From: Woeseiaceae bacterium
GTDB taxonomy: Bacteria; Pseudomonadota; Gammaproteobacteria; Steroidobacterales; Woeseiaceae
NCBI GenBank assembly: GCA_021773095.1
Contig: JAJFKR010000033.1
Location: forward strand, 1-64,000
DNA length: 64,000 bases
Reading direction: 5' to 3'
The notes below the pieces were generated by a model. That model was not told the origin of the DNA, did no database searches, and worked only from the letters and a program-made list of their open reading frames with translations. The position numbers and the translations under genes are program-made. Numbering within the stretch: position 1 is the stretch's first letter; each line of letters starts with the position of its first letter. Positions 18,802 through 37,500 of the stretch are shown here, in pieces.

Positions 18802-21429
18802 TTATTGGCTCCTACTTGCGCCAGTTTGCGTAGCATCCAAAATTACACGAATTCCTTGCGCCAGTTGTGCTGAGGAATACGGTTTCGGTAATAACGGAAT
18901 TTTCTCTGCGCTTCTTGTTTCCTTATCGCTTTCTGGCTCCATCCCGGTAGTGAGCAAGACCTTGACGTCCGGCCAGGTTTCGAGGGTAACGTGCGCGAGT
19001 TCTCGACCGTTCATATCTCCCGGCATAACGATGTCGGCGAACAGAAGGTCTATTGCCTGGTCTTGTTGCAAAATGTTCATTGCGGAAGCGGCATCTTCGG
19101 CACTAAGAGTTTCATATCCGAGACGATTCAATGTACGGCAAGCAAATTGGCGTACCCTTGCACTGTCTTCCACAACGAGTATGATTTCCTCCCCCGTTGG
19201 AAGATCATCGTCCTCTTCGACTTTAATTAATAAATCATCCGCCGCTGCAACCGATGGAAACGACAGCTTGATGCTGGTGCCATTATCCGGGGCACTATCG
19301 ATGTGAAGTTTGCCGCCGCATTGTTGAACGAAATCACTCACCATCGTTAGTCCAAGTCCCGTGCCCGTCTCGACGGTTTTCGTCGTGAAGAACGGTTCAA
19401 CTGCTCGGCGCCTGGTTTCATCGTTCATTCCAATGCCATCGTCGGAAACTGTCAGTACAACAAAATCGCCGGAATCAAGATCAACCTTCCTTTGTGTCTC
19501 ATGCACCGTCTCCTGCATGGTGGAGATCACTATATTCCCTCCATCCGGCATAGCGTCACGAGCATTGGTGACCATATTAAGTACCGCACTTTCCAGGCGA
19601 TTTTTGTCAACAAGGATATTGTCGACGTCATTATCCAGCTCCATTTCTATACTAATCTCCGGAACCGATCGCTGTAAGAGTCTCTCCATGGCCACAAGAA
19701 TATTGTTGACATTCATTGAACTCACATCAAGTTCCTGACGCCGAGAATACGCCAGCAATCGCTTGATCAGGTCTGCCCCGTCCTGGGCTGCAGACAGGGC
19801 GTCCTCAAGCAGATCATTATGATCCTGGTCTTCATAAACCACGTCCTGCTTAAGAAATCTCAGATTGCCTCGAATGACCGTCAAAAGGTTATTGAAGTCG
19901 TGGGAAATACCGTCGGTCATTCGGCCGATAGCCTCAAGCTTCATGGCCTGGGTCAGCATGCTTTCCTTCTTGCGTGCATCGGTAATATCTTCATTGATCG
20001 AGATGTAGCGGGTGATTTCACCTTCCTGATTGCGGACGGGGCAGATCGTCGAAGATAGCCAGAACGGGTCGCCGTTTTTTTTCTTGTTTTGAAATACGCC
20101 CCGCCAAATGCCACCGTTTGAAACAGTTCCCCACAGTTCCTTGTAATTCTCCTTCGACGTCTGACCGGAACTCAGAAAGCGAGGGTTTTCACCGAGCACT
20201 TCCTCTTCACGATAACCGGTTACGTCGTAAAAACGGGGATTAACGTATTCTATGTTTCCGGCAGCGTTGGTAATCATGATCGACACAGGGCTTTGTTCGA
20301 CGGCGCTGGATAGTTGCTGTAGCTCCGCATTCATTTTCTCTTCAACTGACAGGTCGCGCATAATGCCGGTGAAGGAGATATTCCGCCCTTTCTGCACCTT
20401 ACTGACAGTAAGGTAAATTGGAATGAGATCACCATCCTTACGTCGTGCCTGCACTCGTCGACCCCTACCAATGATCTTGGCAATACCTGTTCGCAAGTAA
20501 TTTTCTATGGAATCATCATGTGTTTCATTGTCTGGCAAAGACATAAGCAGGGATACGTTTTGGCCCAATACCTGATTGGCCGCATAGCCGAAAATTGACT
20601 CTGCGGCCAGATTGAATGTCTGGATGACCCCCGTTTCATCGATCGTGACAATACCTTCACCTGCGTTATTCAGGATTGCTTCCAGGCGTAATTCACGATC
20701 CAGTATTTTCTCCTGTTTGCCGATCAGGCTCTGATGCATTACTTCCAGGTCTTCTGCGAGGCTCTTGAGTTCGGAAATCGTCGTGTCGACGCGGAGTTCG
20801 ACGGAATGCTCGCCAGCGGCAACACTGGTCGCCAGACTTCTCAGAGATGAAACGGGCCGGGTAAGAAACCGGCCAAAGAAAATCGCCAGCAAGATGCTGA
20901 ATATAATATAGCAACTCGCAATGAATGAACCGTACCGGTATGCAGTATTGATTTGATCCTGCACAGATAATTCGTCATAGCCTAATCTTAAAATACCGAG
21001 CGATCTGCCATCCACATCACTGAATATTTGCACTGCGATAAAATAGATCTGGTCTGCATGCTGACCGAAATCGAAATCCTCCCTAAAAATGATCGGTTCC
21101 TTAGTGCCATTCATTTCTGTTCCGATCGCCGAAGCATCGTTATTAAGAAATTCGGCAAAGATCACATCACCGCTGAATTGTGTCTCATAAAAAAAAGAGG
21201 CCTGTTTCTTTGTGTCCTGATTCTCGACGGCAGGCTTAAGTAATTCAGAATACAACAGGGTATCGTTGCGTACCTGATCGACAAATTGGGATTCAAAACT
21301 GCGTTCGACAATAAGCAGGATGCCGAAGAACAACAGCGGAGTAAGCATGATATGGACGATGATTACGCCAAGAATCATGCGACCGGTAATGCTGTGCCAG
21401 ATCCGTTTCAATTGTTCGATTCTGTCCAC
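18802..21429 (-). CDS. Hybrid sensor histidine kinase (TM-HAMP-PAS-PAS-HisKA-HATPase-REC)
   Basis: An 875-residue membrane sensor. TM1 (LGVIIVHIMLTPLLFFGILL), a periplasmic region of about 125 residues, TM2 (FIASCYIIFSILLAIFFG), then HAMP, two PAS domains, a HisKA H-box (GISHDFNNLLTVIRGN), HATPase motifs (NMVTNARDAM, VSDDGIGM, TGLGLTMVSDF) and a C-terminal receiver with phosphoacceptor Asp in LLFADIVMPG and KP at LLPKPYS. It overlaps the end of the PstS-like gene by 22 bp, so kinase, periplasmic protein and barrel form one operon. The second PAS (SSAVEQSPVSIMITNAAGNI) resembles redox or small-molecule PAS domains, but no cofactor can be assigned. Likely partner: the divergent OmpR-type regulator (inference). 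Confidence 0.93.
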   Translation of the reverse strand: MDRIEQLKRIWHSITGRMILGVIIVHIMLTPLLFFGILLIVERSFESQFVDQVRNDTLLYSELLKPAVENQDTKKQASFFYETQFSGDVIFAEFLNNDASAIGTEMNGTKEPIIFREDFDFGQHADQIYFIAVQIFSDVDGRSLGILRLGYDELSVQDQINTAYRYGSFIASCYIIFSILLAIFFGRFLTRPVSSLRSLATSVAAGEHSVELRVDTTISELKSLAEDLEVMHQSLIGKQEKILDRELRLEAILNNAGEGIVTIDETGVIQTFNLAAESIFGYAANQVLGQNVSLLMSLPDNETHDDSIENYLRTGIAKIIGRGRRVQARRKDGDLIPIYLTVSKVQKGRNISFTGIMRDLSVEEKMNAELQQLSSAVEQSPVSIMITNAAGNIEYVNPRFYDVTGYREEEVLGENPRFLSSGQTSKENYKELWGTVSNGGIWRGVFQNKKKNGDPFWLSSTICPVRNQEGEITRYISINEDITDARKKESMLTQAMKLEAIGRMTDGISHDFNNLLTVIRGNLRFLKQDVVYEDQDHNDLLEDALSAAQDGADLIKRLLAYSRRQELDVSSMNVNNILVAMERLLQRSVPEISIEMELDNDVDNILVDKNRLESAVLNMVTNARDAMPDGGNIVISTMQETVHETQRKVDLDSGDFVVLTVSDDGIGMNDETRRRAVEPFFTTKTVETGTGLGLTMVSDFVQQCGGKLHIDSAPDNGTSIKLSFPSVAAADDLLIKVEEDDDLPTGEEIILVVEDSARVRQFACRTLNRLGYETLSAEDAASAMNILQQDQAIDLLFADIVMPGDMNGRELAHVTLETWPDVKVLLTTGMEPESDKETRSAEKIPLLPKPYSSAQLAQGIRVILDATQTGASRSQ

Positions 21430-23117: not shown

Positions 23118-23846
23118 ATGACTGAATCCGCCAAAATACTAATTGTTGACGATGATGTTCGAATAGGCCGAACGCTGAGGCTGTATCTCAAGCGAGAAGG
23201 CTATCAGGTCCGAATCGCTACCGATGGCGAAGAAATGTGGAAATGTTTCGAAGACGATCTCCCGGATATGATCTTGCTCGATGTGATGTTGCCCGGCGAC
23301 GATGGAATAACCCTGGCGCGCGAGCTGCGGAAAATATCCGATGTGGGCATCATCATGCTGACCGGAAAAGATGACCCGGTGGATCAAATCATCGGCCTCG
23401 AAATGGGCGCGGATGATTACGTGACGAAACCATTTGACGAGAGACAATTGCTCGCCAGAATTCGCAGTTTGCTGCGCCGGCGAACAGCTCCACCCACTAG
23501 CACGAAAGCTGAATCCGGGGACGATAACCAGAAAATTCTTTTTGATGGCTGGGAAATGGATTTGTTTAGCCACGAACTGGTTTCCCCATCCGGCCACAGG
23601 ACGGAACTGACATCTCACGAATTCAGACTGCTCGAGATATTCGTACGAAATCCGGGAGGTGTCTTAAGCCGCGATCAAATTATGCAAAAACTGTACGAAC
23701 GCGACTGGTCTCTGAATGACAGAAGCGTGGATGTGCTCATCGGAAAACTGCGGAAAAAGATCGAAGAGGACTCCTCGCAACCAAAATTGATCCTGACTAT
23801 TCGTAATTTCGGCTACAAGTTTGCGGGCCGGACGACCAAAGCCTGA
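23118..23846 (+). CDS. OmpR-family DNA-binding response regulator
   Basis: 242 residues: receiver domain (ILIVDDDVRIGR, phospho-Asp in LLDVMLPGDDG, Lys in VTKPFDE) and a winged-helix Trans_reg_C domain (ELTSHEFRLLEIFVRNPGGVLS, RSVDVLIGKLRKKIE). It is the likely output partner of the divergent hybrid kinase. It also sits directly upstream of the triheme cytochrome genes, whose promoter carries phased TTACA repeats of the type OmpR/PhoB regulators bind. No strong terminator separates it from the cytochromes, but a 139-bp gap with that repeat array suggests a separate promoter. Confidence 0.93.
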   Translation: MTESAKILIVDDDVRIGRTLRLYLKREGYQVRIATDGEEMWKCFEDDLPDMILLDVMLPGDDGITLARELRKISDVGIIMLTGKDDPVDQIIGLEMGADDYVTKPFDERQLLARIRSLLRRRTAPPTSTKAESGDDNQKILFDGWEMDLFSHELVSPSGHRTELTSHEFRLLEIFVRNPGGVLSRDQIMQKLYERDWSLNDRSVDVLIGKLRKKIEEDSSQPKLILTIRNFGYKFAGRTTKA

Positions 23847-23985: not shown

Positions 23986-24372
23986 ATGAACGGGAACCGA
24001 ATCGTGGTCAAAACTAAAGACGTAAAAAAAAGTCATACGAAAAAACTCGTCGGAATGGTTTTCGTACTCATGATCGCATTTTCCACATCCTACTCAGAGT
24101 ACGGGGATGTGGTTCTGGACCGGTATAAGGAGACTATGGCGGAAGTTGGCCTGTCACCGGTTGTTTTCCCTCACTGGACTCATCGAATACAATTCAAGTG
24201 CAAGGCTTGTCATGAAAGCATCTTTCCCATGAAAAAAGGGGCGAGCGACATCACTATGTCAGCCATTATCGACGGCGAGTTTTGTGGCAATTGCCATAAT
24301 GGAAAAATCGCCTGGGATCCGCTTTATTGCGATCGATGTCATTCACTGTCAGAAACCGACGAAAAGCAGTAG
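23986..24372 (+). CDS. Triheme c7-type cytochrome (first of three)
   Basis: 128 residues with an N-terminal membrane or signal segment (KLVGMVFVLMIAFSTSYS) and one c(7)-type triheme domain. Hemes are at CKACH, CGNCH and CDRCH; FPHWTH before the first site supplies likely distal His ligands, and DITMSAI and NGKIAW are landmarks of the triheme domain. Such domains carry electrons in the periplasm of metal-reducing and related bacteria. First gene of a five-gene run (three cytochromes, helical protein, NrfJ-like), under the phased TTACA array. Start chosen at ATG 23986; an overlapping ATG lies at 23982 in another frame. Confidence 0.88.
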   Translation: MNGNRIVVKTKDVKKSHTKKLVGMVFVLMIAFSTSYSEYGDVVLDRYKETMAEVGLSPVVFPHWTHRIQFKCKACHESIFPMKKGASDITMSAIIDGEFCGNCHNGKIAWDPLYCDRCHSLSETDEKQ

Positions 24373-26268: not shown

Positions 26269-27009
26269 ATGATATTTCGGATCAAATACGTTTTGATATT
26301 ATGCGTGTGTTTATCCGTCGGCCTGTTCGTTACAAATATCATAGGCGCAGGCTACGCGGCACAAAAAAATAGTGAAGAGGAGTCACTCAAGGAAGTACCG
26401 GACACTATCGACGGAAAGGTATCAACCTCGATAAGTGTTCCGGGTTATACCTATGTTGAGGTTGATACCGGTAGCGATAAAGTCTGGGCTGCTGTGCCCG
26501 GCACCTCCGTAAACATTGGCGACAAGGTGTCATTTTCAATCGGGATACCGATGCAGAATTTTTACAGCAAGACTCTGCAGCGCAACTTTTCCGTCATCTA
26601 TTTTGTGGATCATTTCGTTACCGATGACGGAATCACGCAAATGAGCGCGTCAGCCGCTGCTGCGCACGGTCGACCAAGCCAGAATCCGGCTACGGAGCTG
26701 ATCGAGGAAATCAATAAGGTGGAAGGCGGCAATACGATTGCCGAAATCTATGCGGCGAAGGACAAACTGAATGGCGAGACTATATCTGTGCGCGGAAAGG
26801 TTACCCGGTTCACTGCCAGTGTCCTGGGTAAGAACTGGATTCATATCCGGGATAGCAGCACCACTGATGATCTCACTGTAACCACCGCAGCGACGGCTGC
26901 TATTAATGACATCGTCATTATTGAAGGAAAACTCGAACTGGATAAGGACTATGGTTATGGCTACGTCTACCCGGTTATTCTGGAGGAGGCGAAAATAACG
27001 AAAGACTGA
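26269..27009 (+). CDS. NrfJ-like OB-fold periplasmic protein
   Basis: 246 residues with an N-terminal membrane or signal segment. The first half matches the NrfJ-type domain (GYTYVEVDTGSDKVWAAVPG, then GIPMQNFYSKTLQRNFSVIYFV); the second is an OB-fold (LNGETISVRGKVTRFTASVLGKNWIHIRDSS). NrfJ-type genes accompany cytochrome c nitrite reductase and other multihaem systems, where the role is thought to be assembly-related, but this is not settled. Last gene of the triheme operon, with a good GAGGGAG ribosome site. Confidence 0.78.
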   Translation: MIFRIKYVLILCVCLSVGLFVTNIIGAGYAAQKNSEEESLKEVPDTIDGKVSTSISVPGYTYVEVDTGSDKVWAAVPGTSVNIGDKVSFSIGIPMQNFYSKTLQRNFSVIYFVDHFVTDDGITQMSASAAAAHGRPSQNPATELIEEINKVEGGNTIAEIYAAKDKLNGETISVRGKVTRFTASVLGKNWIHIRDSSTTDDLTVTTAATAAINDIVIIEGKLELDKDYGYGYVYPVILEEAKITKD

Positions 27010-27815: not shown

Positions 27816-27915
27816 GGCTAGTCATACGGAAATTACATGCACCCCATAGCATTACTGTCGATGGAGAAGGACATTCGTCCTACTCGGATTGGAAAACAAG
27901 GAAAGGGGAACTGTA

Positions 27916-28608
27916 ATGAAGACTTTAATCTCAGGCCAAGGGAATCGAGTGTTCACGACCCTGTTGTCGGGGTTATTGATGGGAATGGGTATCCTGTTCT
28001 CAACATCAGCGTTGGCCCAGGACAATACTACTATCGTGGGATCTCCTCACGATTTTCGTACTCAAGGCTGGGTTAACAATGGTAACAATGAAATTTGTGT
28101 GGTTTGTCATACACCGCATAATGCAATCTCCCCTCAGGACGGACCGCTGTGGAACCGCTCGCTGACGCTGTCGACATTTACGTTGTACATGCCCAACACA
28201 ACTCCTGGCAGTGATATTCAGGGTACCGGCTTCAATCAGCCGTCGGGCGTATCAAAACTTTGCTTGTCCTGCCACGACGGCACAATAGCTATCGATGCAT
28301 TTGGTGGCCTGACCGGAACGGAAACGATGGATGACATCAATGCTGCTGCAAATATCGGTGACGTGGTGGGTGGCGTCGGTGATTTGAGAAACGATCACCC
28401 GGTGGCCTTCACCTTCCCAACAACGGATGCTGAACTCTACGCTAATGTAAGCGGCGTGGTAAATGGCCAGATGCCATTGTTTGGCCCGAGCCAGGATCAA
28501 ATGGAATGTGCTTCCTGCCATGACGTGCATGCTACCAATACTTATGACCAGCTACTCAGGGTTGACAACACCGGAAGCGGACTCTGCCTGACCTGCCACA
28601 TAAAATAA
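27916..28608 (+). CDS. Tetraheme c-type cytochrome, candidate extracellular filament (OmcE-like) subunit
   Basis: 230 residues with a signal peptide (TLLSGLLMGMGILFSTSALAQ) and four heme sites CVVCH, CLSCH, CASCH and CLTCH. Extra histidines (SPHDF, TPHN, NDHPVAF, DVHA) could be the distal ligands. Size and heme number are those of OmcE-type tetraheme cytochromes that polymerise into extracellular wires; sequence identity to OmcE cannot be checked here, so that is inference. The same four-heme arrangement recurs at the N-terminus of both 12-heme proteins downstream. The start is the ATG at 27916, with AAGGGGAA upstream; the TTG at 27889 is unlikely. Own terminator follows. Confidence 0.88.
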   Translation: MKTLISGQGNRVFTTLLSGLLMGMGILFSTSALAQDNTTIVGSPHDFRTQGWVNNGNNEICVVCHTPHNAISPQDGPLWNRSLTLSTFTLYMPNTTPGSDIQGTGFNQPSGVSKLCLSCHDGTIAIDAFGGLTGTETMDDINAAANIGDVVGGVGDLRNDHPVAFTFPTTDAELYANVSGVVNGQMPLFGPSQDQMECASCHDVHATNTYDQLLRVDNTGSGLCLTCHIK

Positions 28609-28661
28609 CCTTGGGGTTCACTACAACCGCTGTCGACTCCGACAGGACTCAGGGAACGGCA

Positions 28662-28697
28662 ACACACCCCCTTCCGGTTGGATGGGGGTGTGTTTTT
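28662..28697 (+). terminator. Rho-independent terminator after the tetraheme cytochrome
   Basis: ACACACCCCC-loop-GGGGGTGTGT hairpin followed by TTTTT. It makes the tetraheme gene a single-gene transcript that can be expressed at a level different from the propeller/barrel operon behind it. Confidence 0.88.
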
Positions 28698-28773
28698 ATG
28701 AGACAGTAACATCTTCATGATCAGGAAAAATTTGTACGGCGACATCCTAAGATTTTAGTAATGGGGTAAGAAA

Positions 28774-29913
28774 ATGCAACGAATGCAAAGTAGAAACTTG
28801 AACTTGAAAATTCGTTTTCTGATTGCGTTTTTTCTGTCCGCCTGCATGGCTCCGGCTTTCGCGCAGGATTCGGCGGATAGCGCAGATGACACAAGCGCAC
28901 TTTTCTATCCATCGCTGCCGGATGCTCCACGTATCCAGTACCTGACCAGCTTCTCGGTAGCCGGAGACGTCAAAGAGAAAAAGAAAAAGAAAGGCGGCTG
29001 GCTGAGCGATTTTGTTCTGGGAGAGGAGAACCCCGAGGACGATGAGGGACCGGAAAAACCCTATGGCGTGTCGCTCAATAATGGCCAGATCCACGTCGTG
29101 GATACTCGTGGAGGTGGCTATGCGATCTTCGATGTGCCCGGCAAAGATTATCGCTTCGCTCTCGGGTCAGGCTCTGCTGTAATGTCGAAACCCGTCAACA
29201 TCGAAATTGACGATGCGGGACTCAAATATGTCACTGATACCGAGAGGGGCCAGATTCTTGCTTTTGACAGCAATGACAGGTTTTTGAGGGCATACGGCAA
29301 ACGAGGAGAATTCCGGCCAACGGATGTTTTGGTTGACGAAAATCGTTTGTACGTGGTCGATATTCAGACACACCGAATCATGGTGCTAGACAAGGAAACC
29401 GGTACCGAACTCAGTTCCTTTGGCGGGCCCGGCGCAGAGCAGAATAATTTCTTTCAACCGACCAACATCGCCCTCGGCCCGGACAAGCATCTCTACATTA
29501 GTGATACGGGTAATTTCCGGGTACAAAAATTTACCCGGGATGGTGAGTTTGTGCAAAGTTTTGGGGCGGGTGTTGGCACGGCCCCCGGGGACTTCGCACG
29601 CCCAAAAGGTGTAGCTGTGGATCGTATGGGCCGGCTTTATGTTGTAGACGCAGCCTTCGAAACCGTTCAAATGTTCAGCAACCAGGGTGACCTGCTATTG
29701 TTTTTTGGCGAGCCGGCATCGACACATCGAGGTGGTCTTGACCTGCCAGCAGATATCGACATCGACTATGACAGTGTGCCTTTTTTCCAGCATTACGCAG
29801 AGCCGGGTTTCAATCTCGAATACATCATTGTGGTTGCCAATCAGTTTGGCAATAGCAGTGTCAATGTCTTTGGCTTCGGGCGCTATGAGTCGATGAGCTA
29901 TGACGACGAGTAA
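28774..29913 (+). CDS. Secreted NHL-repeat beta-propeller protein
   Basis: 379 residues. N-terminal export signal (FLIAFFLSACMAPAFAQ) that contains both a lipobox-like LSAC and a signal peptidase I-like AFA-Q site, so lipidation is uncertain. NHL repeats follow (FRPTDVLVDENRLYVVD, FFQPTNIALGPDKHLYISDT, FARPKGVAVDRMGRLYVVD), giving a six-bladed propeller. A very basic KEKKKKKGGW segment precedes an acidic stretch near residue 75. First gene of the operon with the barrel, two other propellers and two 12-heme cytochromes. Probably a protein-protein or docking module at the outer membrane. Confidence 0.88.
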   Translation: MQRMQSRNLNLKIRFLIAFFLSACMAPAFAQDSADSADDTSALFYPSLPDAPRIQYLTSFSVAGDVKEKKKKKGGWLSDFVLGEENPEDDEGPEKPYGVSLNNGQIHVVDTRGGGYAIFDVPGKDYRFALGSGSAVMSKPVNIEIDDAGLKYVTDTERGQILAFDSNDRFLRAYGKRGEFRPTDVLVDENRLYVVDIQTHRIMVLDKETGTELSSFGGPGAEQNNFFQPTNIALGPDKHLYISDTGNFRVQKFTRDGEFVQSFGAGVGTAPGDFARPKGVAVDRMGRLYVVDAAFETVQMFSNQGDLLLFFGEPASTHRGGLDLPADIDIDYDSVPFFQHYAEPGFNLEYIIVVANQFGNSSVNVFGFGRYESMSYDDE

Positions 29914-29974
29914 TCGCACTCGCGGCGCATAAATTCTCCAGAGAGATCGGCAAGCGGATCTCTGAGATTTACTG

Positions 29975-31984
29975 ATGCGTGAAATCGTTCTTACTTGCGT
30001 TGCACTGCTCTTGATCCTGCCGCCTGAGTTTGCGTCCGCTGCTGACGAGCTGGCTATTTTCAGGCTGACAAATATACAGGCGTATATCGAACTGCTGAAT
30101 CGAAAGAACGTGTTTAATAATCAAGCAACCGGGATTGAGACTGCTGTTGACGATTTCAGATCACAAATTGAAATCGGCGCGTCCACCCGTAGTTACATCT
30201 TTCATCCAAAACTATTGCAGATCAGTCTCTCTGGGAGTCTGCTGTCCGATCGGCAGGATATTAGCCGGATGCAGTTCTCAGCAGCGACCAATAGGGCAAC
30301 GCAGTCGATCAGCCGTCAAAAACAAGTGTTACTGAATATTGACACAACGTTGCAGCTCCTCAAGGACAAGCCCTTTCCGACGACTTTTTCGTATCTGCGC
30401 GAAAATCCGGTCGTCAGAACCGGTCTGGAAGGTAGCTTTACGCAGACAACAGAAAGGTACGGCGTTGATTTTCAGTTGCGAGACGTTCTACCCGTAAGCC
30501 TTTCAATCAACGCGTTCACAGATTCATTCTTTGGAGAGTCCCTTGACCGGATAGTGGACTTTACCTCCGACCGTATAACGATAAAGTCGAGGAAAACCTT
30601 TTCCTCCGGAGACCGGTTTGCGCTGAGCTATGAGATGTCCAATCGAAGTTCCCGAAATGGGGATCCAAGGAGAACGATCCAGGAAACGCTGCGCCGATCG
30701 CGAAATTTGGCATTGACATCCAATTGGCGCCTGGGCGTCCGCGATCAGCTACATATTGACCAGGCCGCCAGCTTTAATCGGCGCGATAACCCGGATGTGA
30801 CAGATTTCAATTTTTCGCCCAGAATTCGCTGGCTACATTCCTCCACACTCCAGTCCAGGTATCTATACAGCTTCAATCAGTCTGAAAGACCGGAGTCGAT
30901 GATCAAGAACCGGACGGAAAGGGCAAGCGCTGCACTGCACTACGCACCGACGCCGAAAATGAATGGTTTCGTGCGCGCCAATGTTGATCAATCAGAGGAA
31001 AAAAACCGACTTCTGCAGAATGCTTTTGGGTTGACTTCAAGAGGTAGTTACAAGAAAGACTTGAAGATCGGTCAGCTCAATTTATCCCTTGGACTCGGTT
31101 ACGAACGCAAGGACCGGGAGTCCCTCGTAACGCAGATTGGTGTCATAGAGGAGGCCGTCGAACTGGTCGGTACAGTACCGATTAGCCTGTCGAGGGACTT
31201 CGTCATAATTGATACCGTGACGGTTCGCAATGAAACAGGCACCCAGATTCTTAGCGAAGGTATCGATTATCGCCTCATCGAGGTCGGTTCCCAGACACAG
31301 ATAGAACGATTGATCGGAGGCAGCATTCTTGATGGAGAAACCGTATTAGTCGACTACGATGCACAAACCGGCGGGACCTTCGAGTATTCACAGACAAGCC
31401 AGACAGCGAGCGCCGACTTCAAATTTGCGAAATATCATAATATTTTCTTACGCTACCGCAATAACAAGCAAACACTGGAATCTGGTTTCTCAACGCTGCC
31501 GTTTAATTCGGTCAGATCTGTGGAAGTTGGTTTGCGAGAACAGGTGCCTCTGCGCTGGATGGGGCTCCAGCTTTATGGAGAGGCAAGGTATCTTCATCAG
31601 GATGAAGATATCAACCCGTATGAGCAGAAAAGCGTTCTTGTTTCGGTACAGGCACCATTGCCGCATAGATTGAAGTTGAACTTGTCCGCATCGCGAAACT
31701 TTGTGGATAATCTGAATTCAGTTGAGGACACTGACATGACGGTATTCAATGCCAACCTCAATTGGCGAGCAAGAAGAAATCTGAACGTCCGGGCGGAAGG
31801 CTATTATGACAAGGACACAGGAGGGACAATATTACGCAGTACGACCAAAGGGAAACTGAGGGCGCAATGGCGATATCGAAAAATCATGGTTGCCATGGAT
31901 GCGATGTATGAAAAGCAACAGCAAGGAGATATCAAGAGTGATAATTACGAGATTTGGTTGCGAATAAGACGAGAGCTATTTTGA
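29975..31984 (+). CDS. Large outer-membrane beta-barrel, candidate conduit for the 12-heme cytochromes
   Basis: 669 residues with a signal peptide (TCVALLLILPPEFASAAD) and long alternating beta strands to the end (VLLNIDTTLQLL, LNLSASRNFVDN, NVRAEGYYD), ending in RIRRELF with a terminal Phe. The central part (EGIDYRLIEVGSQTQIERL, VLVDYDAQTGG) has a globular-looking segment. I recognise no named family (not MtrB/PioB by visible motif; those usually carry an N-terminal CXXC). Position between two propeller genes and upstream of the multihaem genes suggests the outer-membrane part of an electron conduit (inference). Confidence 0.82.
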   Translation: MREIVLTCVALLLILPPEFASAADELAIFRLTNIQAYIELLNRKNVFNNQATGIETAVDDFRSQIEIGASTRSYIFHPKLLQISLSGSLLSDRQDISRMQFSAATNRATQSISRQKQVLLNIDTTLQLLKDKPFPTTFSYLRENPVVRTGLEGSFTQTTERYGVDFQLRDVLPVSLSINAFTDSFFGESLDRIVDFTSDRITIKSRKTFSSGDRFALSYEMSNRSSRNGDPRRTIQETLRRSRNLALTSNWRLGVRDQLHIDQAASFNRRDNPDVTDFNFSPRIRWLHSSTLQSRYLYSFNQSERPESMIKNRTERASAALHYAPTPKMNGFVRANVDQSEEKNRLLQNAFGLTSRGSYKKDLKIGQLNLSLGLGYERKDRESLVTQIGVIEEAVELVGTVPISLSRDFVIIDTVTVRNETGTQILSEGIDYRLIEVGSQTQIERLIGGSILDGETVLVDYDAQTGGTFEYSQTSQTASADFKFAKYHNIFLRYRNNKQTLESGFSTLPFNSVRSVEVGLREQVPLRWMGLQLYGEARYLHQDEDINPYEQKSVLVSVQAPLPHRLKLNLSASRNFVDNLNSVEDTDMTVFNANLNWRARRNLNVRAEGYYDKDTGGTILRSTTKGKLRAQWRYRKIMVAMDAMYEKQQQGDIKSDNYEIWLRIRRELF

Positions 31985-33036
31985 CTGTGGCAACGAAATT
32001 TTCCGGATATGCAATGCCAATCGTCGTTTGCATAGCCGTCGTGCTCGCGGCTTGCGTGCCGGTTGTGCATGGGCCGATCTACGAAATGGAGGTTGCAGAG
32101 CCAGTGTGGCCGGCAGCTCCGTCCAGGCCACGATTGGCTTTCGTAATGTCTTTTTCGGGTACGGAAGAACTCGGAATCAGAAAAAACTTTTTGCAACAGC
32201 TACGAGAGTTGATCGGCGGTGCGCGGCAGGTCCGGTTGGTTCGGCCTGTGGCAATAGTCGAAAGCGCTGACAAGCAGTTGTTTGTTGCTGATCCCGGAGT
32301 GCGTGGAGTGCATCGCTTCGACCTTGAGCGAGGTGGGTATCAGCTGATTCGGGGAGAGAACGGCCAACCGTTACCATCGCCTGTCGCGCTTGCCGCCGGG
32401 TTGAGTGGTGAGGTCTATGTTACCGATTCACGTCTGGCCGCCGTATTTGTGATTGAGCCCGGCAAGAGCGTCGCCGTAAAGGTAGCTCTCGAGGCTTTAT
32501 TGGCGCGACCGACCGGGTTGGCGCTGGACCCCCCCAGCGGACGGCTCTATCTCGTTGATACGGGCAGTCATGAAGTAAAAATATTCGCTCGCGACGGAGC
32601 TCTGCTGAAGCGATTTGGTCGCCGTGGTGAAGGATCAGGTGAATTTAATTTTCCGACTATGATCTGGATGAACAGTAGTGGTGAAATACTGGTTTCAGAT
32701 TCCCTGAACTTTCGGACGCAGGTTTTCGATTCTGCTGGAAACTTTCTGCGTCAATTTGGTGAAGCCGGTGATGGCGCAGGACATCAGGCACAAGGCAAGG
32801 GCATAGCGACAGACAGTAACGGTCACGTATATGTCGTGGATTCAATGATGCACGCGGTTCAGATTTTCGATTCGTCGGGCACGTTTCTTTTCAAATTAGG
32901 CTATAGAGGGGAGGGTCCCGGAGAGTTCTGGTTACCTGCCGGCATCTTTGTCGGCGAGAGGGACACAATTTATGTGGCCGATTCCTATAACGGCCGAATT
33001 CAGGTGTTCCGGTATATTGGTGGTGATTTACCATGA
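31981..33036 (+). CDS. NHL-repeat beta-propeller lipoprotein
   Basis: About 351 residues. Lipoprotein signal with lipobox LAAC, then a conserved N-terminal segment VWPAAPSRPRLAFVMSFSG shared with the other propellers here, then six NHL-type blades (FNFPTMIWMNSSGEILVSDS, GKGIATDSNGHVYVVDS, WLPAGIFVGERDTIYVADS). The ORF track opens upstream at 31954, but TTG at 31981 overlaps the barrel's TGA in a TTGA arrangement and has GAGAG 5 bp upstream; GTG 31987 is also possible. It overlaps the next gene by 4 bp (ATGA). Likely anchored in the outer membrane next to the barrel. Confidence 0.86.
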   Translation: MTVATKFSGYAMPIVVCIAVVLAACVPVVHGPIYEMEVAEPVWPAAPSRPRLAFVMSFSGTEELGIRKNFLQQLRELIGGARQVRLVRPVAIVESADKQLFVADPGVRGVHRFDLERGGYQLIRGENGQPLPSPVALAAGLSGEVYVTDSRLAAVFVIEPGKSVAVKVALEALLARPTGLALDPPSGRLYLVDTGSHEVKIFARDGALLKRFGRRGEGSGEFNFPTMIWMNSSGEILVSDSLNFRTQVFDSAGNFLRQFGEAGDGAGHQAQGKGIATDSNGHVYVVDSMMHAVQIFDSSGTFLFKLGYRGEGPGEFWLPAGIFVGERDTIYVADSYNGRIQVFRYIGGDLP

Positions 33037-34724
33037 AATACACAGGTCCGTTTTGTCTGATCTTGTTAATGCTTTACCTGGCCTCGGATCTGTCTATGGC
33101 GCAACAGACATTCAATATAGAAGACAGCCGCCATGACCTGGCGATAGTTTTGTCGACCGGCTATGAAGGTGAGGCTAGTGATGCACAGTGTATCTTCTGT
33201 CATCCTCCCCGCAGTCACACGCTAAAGATCGGATTGTGGAACGAGGCGCCAGCGGAGAATCTTTTTGATTACCCTTATGGCAGGCAGGGTGAAGAAGGGC
33301 CACCGGGCAAACCGGATGGTTCTTCGCTTGTATGCCTTGGTTGTCATGACGGAACTATTGCTTTGGGCGACGTACGCAGTCGTACTCAGTCGATCAGCAA
33401 TAGTCGTGGCATAAAACGTACTGACTTGTCCGACGGTCACCCTATCTCGTTTTCGTATGACTCAATCCTGGTGGACAGTAATGACGAACTTGAAAATCCA
33501 AAGGAGTTAACGCAACAGGTGAGGCTTGACTCTACAGGCAAAATTCAATGTACGAGCTGCCATGATCCCCACGACGATACCAATGGTAAGTTCCTGGTAA
33601 TGGATAACAGTTCAACAGGGCTGTGTGTCACGTGCCATAAGAAGGCGGGTTGGGATGCGTCCTTGCACAATATTTCGTCAGCGACGTGGAACCATAGAGG
33701 ACGGGATCCATGGCCATTCAGCGATTTGGGAGGATCAGTTGCAGAGCACGGTTGTTCCAATTGCCACACGCCCCACGCGGCAGGGAATGGCCAATATCTT
33801 CTCAATTACAATGTCGAAGAAGACAACTGCATGGCCTGTCACAATGGCAATGTGGCTGATACGGACATCAATGCAGAATTCAATAAAATCTCACATCACC
33901 CCATTGAGCAGACGGCTGACATTCATGCGGCGGATGAAGCGATTATTGTGAACGCGGGAGATCGTCATGTTGAGTGCGTTGATTGCCACAACCCTCATTC
34001 CGTTAGCACAGCCGAGACGAATAGTACCCATGTCACCTGGAAAAATGTTCGTGGCGTGGATGTCAACGGCGGGGAAAAAACAGAAGCTACCGCGGAATTT
34101 GAATTGTGTTTTCGCTGCCATGGTGACAGCCCGGGGAAGGCCGCAATGCCAACGCCACGCCAGCATGATCAGAATAATGTGCGACTGCAGTTTGATAATG
34201 GTAATCCATCGTTTCATCCGGTAGTCGGCCCCGGCAATAACTCAAACGCCCCGTCTCTGATAGCACCATTGAGTGAGAATAGTACTGTCGCTTGCAGTGA
34301 TTGCCACTCCAGTGATACCGATTCCATCCTCGGTGGGAATGGACCCGATGGACCGCACGGGTCGATTTACCCGTCATTGTTAATTCGCGCCTACCAGACA
34401 CAGGACAAAACGCCTGAGAGTCCGGGCGCTTATTCCTTGTGTTATATGTGTCACGATCGGAACAGTATTCTCGGTGATGAAAGCTTTGAGCAACACAGCT
34501 TGCACATCAGCGATAACAGTACTCCTTGTAGTGTCTGTCATGATCCGCATGGCATAAGCTCTGTGCAGGGGAATACAGTCAATAACTCGCATTTGATTAA
34601 TTTCGATACATCGGTCGTTTTCCCAAACAACAATAATGACCTCCATTTTGAAGATCGTGGAAGTTTTAGCGGTGCCTGTTTCCTGGCATGCCACAACCTT
34701 GAACATGACGGTCTTTCCTATTGA
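33033..34724 (+). CDS. 12-heme c-type cytochrome (first of two paralogues)
   Basis: 563 residues with a signal peptide (LILLMLYLASDLSMAQ). Eleven CXXCH sites (CIFCH, CLGCH, CTSCH, CVTCH, CSNCH, CMACH, CVDCH, CFRCH, CSDCH, CYMCH, CSVCH) and a final CFLACH, i.e. CX3CH. The first four sites, with CHDGTIAL and GHPISFSY between them, reproduce the order of the tetraheme cytochrome. Many DPH, TPH and NPH histidines could be distal ligands. Translationally coupled to the propeller before (ATGA) and after (TTGA). Likely outer-membrane-associated electron carrier; the donor and acceptor are not known. Confidence 0.9.
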   Translation: MKYTGPFCLILLMLYLASDLSMAQQTFNIEDSRHDLAIVLSTGYEGEASDAQCIFCHPPRSHTLKIGLWNEAPAENLFDYPYGRQGEEGPPGKPDGSSLVCLGCHDGTIALGDVRSRTQSISNSRGIKRTDLSDGHPISFSYDSILVDSNDELENPKELTQQVRLDSTGKIQCTSCHDPHDDTNGKFLVMDNSSTGLCVTCHKKAGWDASLHNISSATWNHRGRDPWPFSDLGGSVAEHGCSNCHTPHAAGNGQYLLNYNVEEDNCMACHNGNVADTDINAEFNKISHHPIEQTADIHAADEAIIVNAGDRHVECVDCHNPHSVSTAETNSTHVTWKNVRGVDVNGGEKTEATAEFELCFRCHGDSPGKAAMPTPRQHDQNNVRLQFDNGNPSFHPVVGPGNNSNAPSLIAPLSENSTVACSDCHSSDTDSILGGNGPDGPHGSIYPSLLIRAYQTQDKTPESPGAYSLCYMCHDRNSILGDESFEQHSLHISDNSTPCSVCHDPHGISSVQGNTVNNSHLINFDTSVVFPNNNNDLHFEDRGSFSGACFLACHNLEHDGLSY

Positions 34725-35743
34725 GTGAGCATATTGTGACCAGGGCCCTGATAATATTGACACTTGCGATTGCTGTGGCCTGTGCGCCGGCAACGCTAAA
34801 GGATACAGATACCCCTGCTTCTTTGGCGCAGGCGGTCTGGCCTGATCCGCCACAGGAAGCCCGGATTCGGTATCTCTACTCTTTCAGCGAACCCGTTGAT
34901 CTTGGAATCAAACCCGGGGCGTTCTCACGTTTCCTACAGGTATTTACAGGTAAGGAAAGTCAGCGAATGCTGAGGCCGTATTCCATTGCTGCCGACGATG
35001 ACATGATTGTTGTCGCCGACCCGGGGCTCAAGGTCGTTCACCTCTATATGACCAAGCGAAAGAAATATGCGGTGATTAGCAATGCTGGTGGCGAAAACTT
35101 TGTATCACCGATCGGGATCAGCCTGGGGCATGACGCCATTTACCTCACTGACTCCGCCCTCGGCAAGGTTTTCGTTTTTGATCGGCAAGGTGAACATCAA
35201 AATACAATCACGGGCTTGGTGCGTCCAACCGGGGTTGTTTTTCACTCTGACAGTCGGCGCCTTTACGTCGCCGATACGCTCGAAAATCAGATTGTCGTAT
35301 ATGACGACGGAGGCGTACTCCTGAATGCATTTGGAACAAGAGGGGGGGCGGTGGGTGAATTCAATTTCCCGTCATTTCTCACTCTGCATGGCGATATCCT
35401 TTACGTGAACGACACAATGAACTTTCGCATACAGGCATTCGATCTGGATGGATCCCCTGTTACCTCCTTTGGTAAATCCGGCGACGGGTCTGGGCAATTT
35501 GCCCTCTCAAAGGGGCTGGGTGCAGATAGGCTTGGGCACGTCTATGTTGCAGATTCCCTGTCAAACTACGTTCAAATCTTCGATTCGGAGGGCCGCTTTT
35601 TATTGTCCTTTGGTGGCATGGGGGGGGGCATCGGACATTTCAGGTTGCCGGTCGGCATTCATATTTTGAAAAACAGGATATTCGTCGCTGATTCCCAGAA
35701 TCAGCGCGTGCAGGTTTTTGAATATATCGGCGGTGGTACCTGA
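34721..35743 (+). CDS. NHL-repeat beta-propeller protein, probable lipoprotein
   Basis: 340 residues; hydrophobic signal ending AIAVAC, a weak lipobox. It shares the VWPDPPQEARIRYLYSFSEP opening with its neighbours, and the DLGIKPGAFSRFLQVFTGKE stretch with the previous propeller (ELGIRKNFLQQLRELIGG). Six NHL blades follow (FNFPSFLTLHGDILYVND, LSKGLGADRLGHVYVADS). The TTG start at 34721 overlaps the cytochrome stop (TTGA); GTG at 34736 is an alternative. It overlaps the next cytochrome by one base (TGATG). Each 12-heme gene is thus preceded by its own propeller. Confidence 0.86.
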   Translation: MSEHIVTRALIILTLAIAVACAPATLKDTDTPASLAQAVWPDPPQEARIRYLYSFSEPVDLGIKPGAFSRFLQVFTGKESQRMLRPYSIAADDDMIVVADPGLKVVHLYMTKRKKYAVISNAGGENFVSPIGISLGHDAIYLTDSALGKVFVFDRQGEHQNTITGLVRPTGVVFHSDSRRLYVADTLENQIVVYDDGGVLLNAFGTRGGAVGEFNFPSFLTLHGDILYVNDTMNFRIQAFDLDGSPVTSFGKSGDGSGQFALSKGLGADRLGHVYVADSLSNYVQIFDSEGRFLLSFGGMGGGIGHFRLPVGIHILKNRIFVADSQNQRVQVFEYIGGGT

Positions 35744-37500
35744 TGCGACGCGAGGCGATCCTGATTGTTAGCTTGCTGTGCGTTTCGCCCAATGGATGGG
35801 CGTCGGATATATCTGCTACAAGGCATAATTTGTCCGTCTCCGGATCGGGTTCAGTGACGAGCGGAATGGTCGATGAGGTTTGCGTCTTTTGTCATACGCC
35901 GCACCATTCTTCACAAAGCGCGCCGTTGTGGAACCGCGAACTTCCTACCGGACAAACCTACCAGTTGTACGGCAGCAGCACTCTCGATGCGTCACCCGAA
36001 AACCCGCAACTGAGATCAGGCAATCATTCCCTGCTCTGTCTTTCATGTCATGACGGTACGATTGCATTAGGCGATTTTATTAATTCGCCCCAGGAAGATA
36101 CCGGTTTTGTATTTGGCATAAATGACAGGGGCAGGCTGGGCACGGACCTGAGTAACGATCATCCGGTTTCGTTTACTTACGACAACAGTTTGTCACTCAA
36201 CGATACACGTCTGCATCAGCCGGGAATCAATGGCGCGAATATCGCGCCTCTTCCCCTGCAGGGAGGGCAATACCTTGAGTGTACGACGTGTCACGACGTA
36301 CACGACAACACACTGCAGCCGTTCCTGTATGAGCAGACATTGAATGGTGACCTGTGTCTTAAGTGCCATGATTTCACAACCTGGGACTTCTCTGTTTCAT
36401 CGCATGCCACTCAAGCTGGAAATACGCCCGGTTCCCCCGGCCCCTGGGATAACAGGAGAGCGGAATGGCGTGGTTTCAACGTCGCCGAGAACAGTTGCTT
36501 CAACTGTCACACGCCACACAGCGCTCCATCACCGAAACGTTTGTTGAAAGATGTAGAAGAGGATACCTGCTTGCAATGTCACAACGGCAGTATCGCCAAT
36601 ACGAACATTGCAGCGGAGTTCAACAAGGCTTCCAGTCACCCGATTGACTTGACGACGGATGTCCACGATCCCAGTCCAGGCGTCGAGTCAGTCGTTGTCC
36701 AGTCCCGGCATGTGGAGTGTGTTGACTGCCATAATCCACATGCAGTCAGTGCCGCCGATATTGGAAATCTGCCCGGACCACTAAACGGTGTCAGGGGGCT
36801 CGACTCGTCCGGCCTTGGCGAACTAAATCCCATTACCGAGGTGTACCAGTTGTGTTTTCGCTGTCACGGTTACAGTGGCAGTAAACCGGCACCGCCGACG
36901 GCGCGCGTGCACGAACAGACCAACGTTGCGCTGGAATTCGATACCGGCAATCCTTCATTCCATCCGATACTGGGACCGAGCGTCAATCCCAATGTGCCCA
37001 GCCTGCTCATACCCTCGGGTAGTGTTATTACCTGTATCGACTGTCACAACAGCAATACATCCAGCACGGCCGGTGGCAGTGGGCCGGACGGACCTCATGG
37101 TTCTACGTTTCCGACATTGCTTGCTCGTCGTTATGTGACAGCAGACAATACGCGAGAGAGTCCTGCCGTCTATGCGCTGTGTTTTAACTGCCATGACTAC
37201 GACAGCATTCTTAATGATGACAGTTTCGGTGAACACTCAAGGCATCTTGAGAATGGCGATGTGCCCTGCAATGCTTGCCACGACCCGCACGGTGTTTCAT
37301 CGACTCAGGCGACCTCCAGTAATGGATTTCCCAACAATACGCATTTGATCAATTTTGATACCGGTATTGTCTCGCCTACGCTGGGCAACCCCACGCCACT
37401 TTATGAGGACCTTGGTACGTTTCAGGGCACCTGCACGCTCAGTTGTCACGGTGAGCAGCACTGTCCCGGCAACAGTTGCGATATCGATGCCCGCTATTAG
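35743..37500 (+). CDS. 12-heme c-type cytochrome (second paralogue)
   Basis: 585 residues with a short signal peptide (LIVSLLCVSPNGWAS). CXXCH sites are CVFCH, CLSCH, CTTCH, CLKCH, CFNCH, CLQCH, CVDCH, CFRCH, CIDCH, CFNCH and CNACH, then CTLSCH, the same CX3CH end as its paralogue. The first heme segment (CVFCHTPHHSS..PLWNREL) is almost superimposable on the tetraheme cytochrome (CVVCHTPHNAI..PLWNRSL). Near the C-terminus lies an extra cysteine pair, HCPGNSC, absent from the paralogue. Last gene of the conduit operon; 230 bp without a gene follow. The duplication suggests serial or alternative electron paths (inference). Confidence 0.9.
   Translation: MRREAILIVSLLCVSPNGWASDISATRHNLSVSGSGSVTSGMVDEVCVFCHTPHHSSQSAPLWNRELPTGQTYQLYGSSTLDASPENPQLRSGNHSLLCLSCHDGTIALGDFINSPQEDTGFVFGINDRGRLGTDLSNDHPVSFTYDNSLSLNDTRLHQPGINGANIAPLPLQGGQYLECTTCHDVHDNTLQPFLYEQTLNGDLCLKCHDFTTWDFSVSSHATQAGNTPGSPGPWDNRRAEWRGFNVAENSCFNCHTPHSAPSPKRLLKDVEEDTCLQCHNGSIANTNIAAEFNKASSHPIDLTTDVHDPSPGVESVVVQSRHVECVDCHNPHAVSAADIGNLPGPLNGVRGLDSSGLGELNPITEVYQLCFRCHGYSGSKPAPPTARVHEQTNVALEFDTGNPSFHPILGPSVNPNVPSLLIPSGSVITCIDCHNSNTSSTAGGSGPDGPHGSTFPTLLARRYVTADNTRESPAVYALCFNCHDYDSILNDDSFGEHSRHLENGDVPCNACHDPHGVSSTQATSSNGFPNNTHLINFDTGIVSPTLGNPTPLYEDLGTFQGTCTLSCHGEQHCPGNSCDIDARY

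Follow-up and report, generated by a model that had tools for sequence, protein, structure and literature searches.

The tetraheme cytochrome T4 and the N-terminal thirds of two 12-heme cytochromes, D1 and D2, encoded in a 64,000-nucleotide stretch of a Woeseiaceae bacterium (GenBank assembly GCA_021773095.1, contig JAJFKR010000033.1, positions 1 to 64,000; hereafter the window), are one homologous module, whose homology and identity we regard as nearly certain, and this module belongs to the same family as the filament-forming cytochrome OmcE of Geobacter. The locus is very probably a trans-outer-membrane electron conduit of the Uet (undecaheme electron transfer) type. The Uet complex of Ca. 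Tenderia electrophaga and Gallionellaceae comprises the tetraheme UetA, the porin UetC, the trihemes UetD, UetE and UetG, the NHL proteins UetH and UetI, and the undecaheme UetJ (PMC10734462). The genes and segments on which the argument turns are the following.

27916..28608, + strand: tetraheme c-type cytochrome T4 (UetA-like, OmcE family), with four CXXCH motifs; the start is taken as the ATG at 27916, the open reading frame (ORF) program having begun at the TTG at 27889
33033..34724, + strand: first 12-heme cytochrome D1 (UetJ-like, J12 subfamily), with 11 CXXCH and one CX3CH; PF09699
33060..33644, + strand: OmcE-type N-terminal module of D1, hemes 1-4, matching T4 and the tetraheme profile
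33210..33212, + strand: Arg60 of D1 at the CHTPH histidine position, where His is kept in 79/82
35743..37500, + strand: second 12-heme cytochrome D2 (UetJ-like, J12 subfamily), with 11 CXXCH and one CX3CH; AlphaFold2 (AF2) model with pLDDT 79.8
35758..36372, + strand: OmcE-type N-terminal module of D2, hemes 1-4, from the phmmer match to OmcE, the fold and the tetraheme profile
36016..37353, + strand: predicted MtrA-like ten-heme core of D2, hemes 2-11, from model alignment and motif register
37432..37449, + strand: heme 12 CX3CH motif of D2, kept in almost the entire J12 set

The first-pass annotation of the window had noticed the same landmarks in the same order in all three proteins, and they are indeed present throughout. 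They read CVVCHTPH, PLWNR, CLSCHDGTIAIDAF, NDHPVAF, CASCHDVH and CLTCH in T4; CVFCHTPH, PLWNR, CLSCHDGTIALGDF, NDHPVSF, CTTCHDVH and CLKCH in D2; and, with the CHPPR and GLWNE variants, CIFCHPPR (His lost), GLWNE, CLGCHDGTIALGDV, GHPISF, CTSCHDPH and CVTCH in D1. The module had also been placed correctly at the N-terminus of both 12-heme proteins; it spans 4 of the 12 hemes (residues about 20-212) and is a third of the protein, not the quarter that had been proposed.

For the comparisons, 80 relatives of the 12-heme protein were collected together with their surroundings, and each protein was cut into thirds by heme. The alignment of 65 tetrahemes with 83 N-terminal modules by hhalign gave an E value of 3.8e-70 across 203 columns, against 2.6e-16 for the tetraheme profile with the middle module and 5e-5 with the C-terminal module. 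Similarly, the median score of the tetraheme hidden Markov model was 183 bits for N-terminal modules and 17 and 8.5 bits for the other two thirds, while the 162 further multiheme ORFs in these loci gave 15 bits with the tetraheme profile; the few high scorers among these are truncated or 11-heme relatives and tetraheme-like proteins, some of which have five hemes. Within the window, D2 is nearer to T4 (40% and 172 bits) than D1 is (33% and 148 bits), and the N-terminal module of D2 matches the tetraheme profile at E 1.6e-50. The annotation had named as a refuting result that the conserved blocks might be a generic pattern common to a very broad family. For multiheme cytochromes this would be the CXXCH pattern, and all of these proteins do match Paired_CXXCH_1; however, the other modules and the 162 multiheme ORFs score at background, which rules this explanation out and leaves it a negligible probability. 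As a separate observation, the five-heme proteins at 173-221 bits with the tetraheme profile (L053:20476-21162, L012:20135-20818 and L058:3613-4275) are possible five-heme OmcE relatives.

T4 matches OmcE (PDB 7tfs) over residues 63-239 with a phmmer E value of 1.8e-21, or 5.6e-48 with a profile, and the four CXXCH motifs are in register; the N-terminus of D2 matches OmcE in the PDB at E 5.7e-39 by phmmer. The structural check suggested by the annotation agrees, in that the modules share the OmcE fold in their models: the AF2 model of T4 aligns with 7tfs at Z 11.5 over 167 residues and 3.1 Å (Foldseek E 8.7e-8), and residues 27-210 of the D2 model align with it at Z 10.9, heme geometry being judged only through the fold alignment of models. 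By analogy with OmcE, it is rather probable that T4 polymerises. A second OmcE-family protein, the 'putative multiheme cytochrome c' of PDB 9yuq chain N, is present there as 16 identical chains and is likely another assembly of the OmcE family.

The origin of the module was judged mainly from a careful tree of 56 modules, from which the longest branches were left out. An earlier large quick tree was under-searched, as an AU test on it gave a better tree with T4 and D2 joined, and further larger trees were also quick. In the 56-module tree, every N-terminal module lies on one side of a branch (support 95/89; 96% of bootstrap trees), and the N-terminal modules, OmcE and two tetrahemes of related loci are split from the remaining tetrahemes (99/95). 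Forcing T4 and the D2 module together is 45 log units worse (p-AU 0.0005). Among the best matches to the D2 module, Geobacter OmcE ranks first and T4 39th of 65 tetrahemes, and across 56 pairs the rank of the cognate tetraheme is what a random one would reach (median 30). Judged by sequence, the D2 module is nearer to OmcE than to T4. The single branch of N-terminal modules, the rejected clade of T4 and D2, and the random-like cognate rank therefore indicate that the join is old and family-wide. The N-terminal unit would have come into the conduits in a single ancient event, from the section of its family that includes OmcE or is ancestral to it. The tree that the annotation had called for thus shows one old origin and no grouping of T4 with D2, and the idea that the tetraheme module was reused at this locus has to be given up; D2 is nearer to T4 than D1 is, as the annotation had stated, but a special kinship of T4 and D2 did not hold. 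Local duplication, with capture of the adjacent tetraheme gene by the 12-heme genes, would account for the shared landmarks and for the apparent closeness of D2 to T4, but the p-AU value, the single-sided branch and the rank of T4 for D2 rule it out, and we consider it extremely improbable.

Over hemes 2-11, the 12-heme protein follows MtrA in predicted fold and in register. Residues 92-537 of the D2 model align with MtrA (6r2q_A) at Z 10.3 over 234/265 residues with 29% identity, and the register that pairs MtrA heme n with heme n+1 of the 12-heme protein, scored outside CXXCH, is the best in 81 of 83 sequences. From this fold alignment and register, the 12-heme protein reads as a ten-heme wire of the MtrA type that carries an additional heme at either end, the N-terminal one completing an OmcE unit according to the models. 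With TIGR03508 (MtrA/DmsE), the scores of 55.6 and 50.4 bits do not reach the cut-off of the curated family (192.2), so the 12-heme protein works like, but is not a member of, the MtrA/DmsE family. Exactly 12 motifs, 11 of them CXXCH, occur in 82 of 85 J12 sequences; it was also observed that the J12 chain often ends in Tyr and that a count of CXXCH alone would label the 12-heme proteins 'undecaheme'.

The overall explanation that we favour, with somewhat better than even confidence, is a Uet-type conduit in which an OmcE-type unit is completed at the first end of an MtrA-like wire and presented to T4. In this explanation, T4 would be the UetA-like tetraheme, which is likely to polymerise, or at any rate to dock end to end, and D1 and D2 would be UetJ-like conduit cytochromes, whose hemes 2-11 form a wire of predicted fold and register that presumably threads the barrel. 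Heme 1 and the N-terminal segment would join hemes 2-4 to make up a complete OmcE unit, and the CX3CH heme 12 would cap the opposite end. The likely role of the N-terminal unit would be to offer an OmcE-type subunit face, namely heme 1 with the CHTPH histidine, to another such subunit, with the heme chain continuing into T4. In the OmcE filament, heme 2 receives an axial His from the adjacent subunit (PMC12203936). T4 has exactly four conserved ligand-type histidines outside CXXCH, which are kept in 57, 61, 63 and 63 of 63 T4-type proteins, and the same four are kept in 82, 79, 82 and 82 of 82 N-terminal modules. Since the full ligand set is kept and OmcE shares a histidine between subunits, the terminal module could supply or receive one. 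Docking of the N-terminal unit to T4 is a tentative proposal to which we give less than even chances, and the seeding of the wire by the conduit, suggested by the annotation, is possible at about the same odds. The widest form of the idea is doubtful, namely that a covalently built-in OmcE-type subunit of the conduit anchors or nucleates the wire of tetrahemes, and that this arrangement, which occurs in about 14 phyla, generally serves to attach OmcE-type nanowires to the membrane. Alongside it, OmcE wires might have arisen from the end module of such conduits once it had become free.

Several results weigh against this explanation. In D1 and its Woeseiaceae orthologue (L007:7291-8979), Arg replaces the CHTPH histidine that D2 retains, and D1 and D2 may therefore differ in completing a neighbour heme. 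The cognate tetraheme, as described above, is no closer to its own N-terminal module than a random one. In mirror-tree comparisons of the tetraheme (T) with the N-terminal (M1), middle and C-terminal (M3) modules of the 12-heme protein, T co-varies best with M3 in 27 loci (partial r 0.69, against 0.22 for M1, with three background proteins removed), and in 49 loci equally with M1 and M3 and least with the middle module. The signal is thus as strong for the C-terminal as for the N-terminal module, and the N-terminal end is not singled out. Finally, heme 1 of MtrA faces the periplasm (PMC12203936), and the MtrA-like register together with this orientation would by default put the N-terminal module at the mouth on the periplasmic side; by homology to MtrA, the side of the module would be the periplasm, whereas OmcE wires are extracellular. 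The barrel did not settle the orientation, because the porin profile gave only spurious matches against the PDB, with no MtrB homology by sequence. Anchoring would require either an insertion of UetJ in the opposite sense to that of MtrA or a wire that begins in the periplasm; more generally, either the insertion is reversed, or the tetraheme is periplasmic, or there is no docking. As a side observation, a third loss of the CHTPH histidine occurs in L068.

In another explanation, the module simply forms the mouth, on the periplasmic side, of a wire of the MtrA type that has ancestry in common with the tetraheme, and it exchanges electrons with the trihemes, the tetraheme lying outside, at the end of hemes 9-12. 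The register and orientation of MtrA, the T-M3 signal, strongest in the 27-locus set, and the trihemes within the window support it, and it is a serious contender, though at less than even probability. On the other hand, the M1 and M3 signals are equal in 49 loci, and the explanation does not account for the conservation of the four OmcE-type ligands and of the heme-1 landmarks, which are missing in MtrA. It is also conceivable that the tetraheme is soluble and pairs one to one with the module, as a partner or shuttle in a heterodimer, and forms no filament. This fits the same homology facts; filament formation by UetA is only presumed, and what cytochrome filaments do physiologically is itself disputed (PMC11077965). 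The nearest solved relative, OmcE, is nevertheless a filament, and 9yuq, with its 16 identical chains, resembles an assembly, so that we hold the soluble partner to be unlikely.

The gene order tetraheme, NHL, barrel, NHL and 12-heme protein recurs in loci of about 14 phyla, and a tetraheme lies within the fetched DNA in 37 of the 39 loci that have at least 8 kb on both sides. Among the 51 listed module-holding Gammaproteobacteria genomes of a class-wide draw, 47 have both a lone tetraheme and a large module-bearing cytochrome, at most 15 kb apart in 40. Other Gammaproteobacteria have Uet-order loci with an 11-heme protein of about 900 aa, which also starts with an OmcE module, and a peptidylprolyl isomerase (PPIase) is present in the one such locus tested for it (L099). 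The 12-heme J12 form of about 570 aa and the 11-heme form of about 900 aa are separate clades (support 100; quick tree), and the locus is therefore Uet-like, not Uet in the strict sense. A literature search that did not cover the original Uet description found no mention of a relation among UetA, UetJ and OmcE, and priority is not established.

The remaining members of the cluster are as follows.

23986..24372, + strand: triheme c7-type cytochrome (UetD/E/G-like); PF14522
24379..24975, + strand: triheme c7-type cytochrome (UetD/E/G-like); PF14522, TIGR04257
25010..25579, + strand: triheme c7-type cytochrome (UetD/E/G-like); PF14522, TIGR04257
28774..29913, + strand: NHL beta-propeller NHLa (Pfam PF01436), adjoining the tetraheme gene in related loci too
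29975..31984, + strand: candidate outer-membrane beta-barrel (UetC-like porin), 669 aa with a C-terminal Phe
31954..33036, + strand: NHL beta-propeller NHLb, apparent lipoprotein (LAAC), PF01436; overlaps the start of the D1 gene
34721..35743, + strand: NHL beta-propeller NHLc, apparent lipoprotein, PF01436; overlaps the start of the D2 gene

The barrel candidate has no Pfam or NCBIfam match and no credible PDB match; the porin label follows from synteny and size, not from a family model, and its homologues sit amid NHL genes in most related loci. An NHL gene lies immediately 5' of the 12-heme gene in almost all related loci. A hybrid PAS histidine kinase (18802-21429, -) and an OmpR-type response regulator (23118-23846, +) flank the cluster and may control it. 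A protein at 26269-27009 without a Pfam or NCBIfam match recurs near conduit loci of several phyla (L006:14249-15037, L025, L028, L042, L043, L046 and L048). The host genome comprises 3.41 Mb in 42 contigs, and a Woeseiaceae metagenome-assembled genome carries a D2 relative at 92% identity. On another contig of the host genome (L006), a second Uet-like locus encodes a single tetraheme that shares 51% identity with T4, together with one 12-heme protein and octaheme proteins. A 12-heme-like protein was found in only 5 of the nearest 60 genomes searched, and the locus is therefore accessory.

How cytochrome nanowires are anchored to the outer membrane, and how they get electrons from it, is a stated open question (PMC12307469). 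In many phyla, one conserved gene cluster encodes both a subunit of the filament type and a trans-membrane wire with the same module, and the locus offers a concrete protein pair, a specific interface and a specific residue for this question, linking Uet, OmcE and MtrA, three systems usually handled separately. Like the Uet complex, the locus clusters a tetraheme, a porin candidate, three trihemes, NHL proteins and a large UetJ-like cytochrome; unlike it, the large cytochrome here is a 12-heme protein of about 570 aa (11 CXXCH and one CX3CH) of the J12 clade and is present in two copies. The genes of the window that were tested between 23 and 38 kb showed no PPIase (UetB). As compared with MtrA of MtrCAB (PDB 6R2Q), hemes 2-11 of the D2 model superpose on MtrA hemes 1-10, whereas D1 and D2 have two extra hemes and an OmcE-type N-terminal segment, and the porin, unlike that of MtrCAB, has no detectable MtrB homology. 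Finally, OmcE of Geobacter sulfurreducens (PDB 7TFS) and the module of T4 and D2 have four hemes, the same landmarks and the same predicted fold; in contrast to the filament-forming OmcE, T4 is known here from its sequence and predicted fold, and the module of D1 and D2 is fused to eight further hemes.

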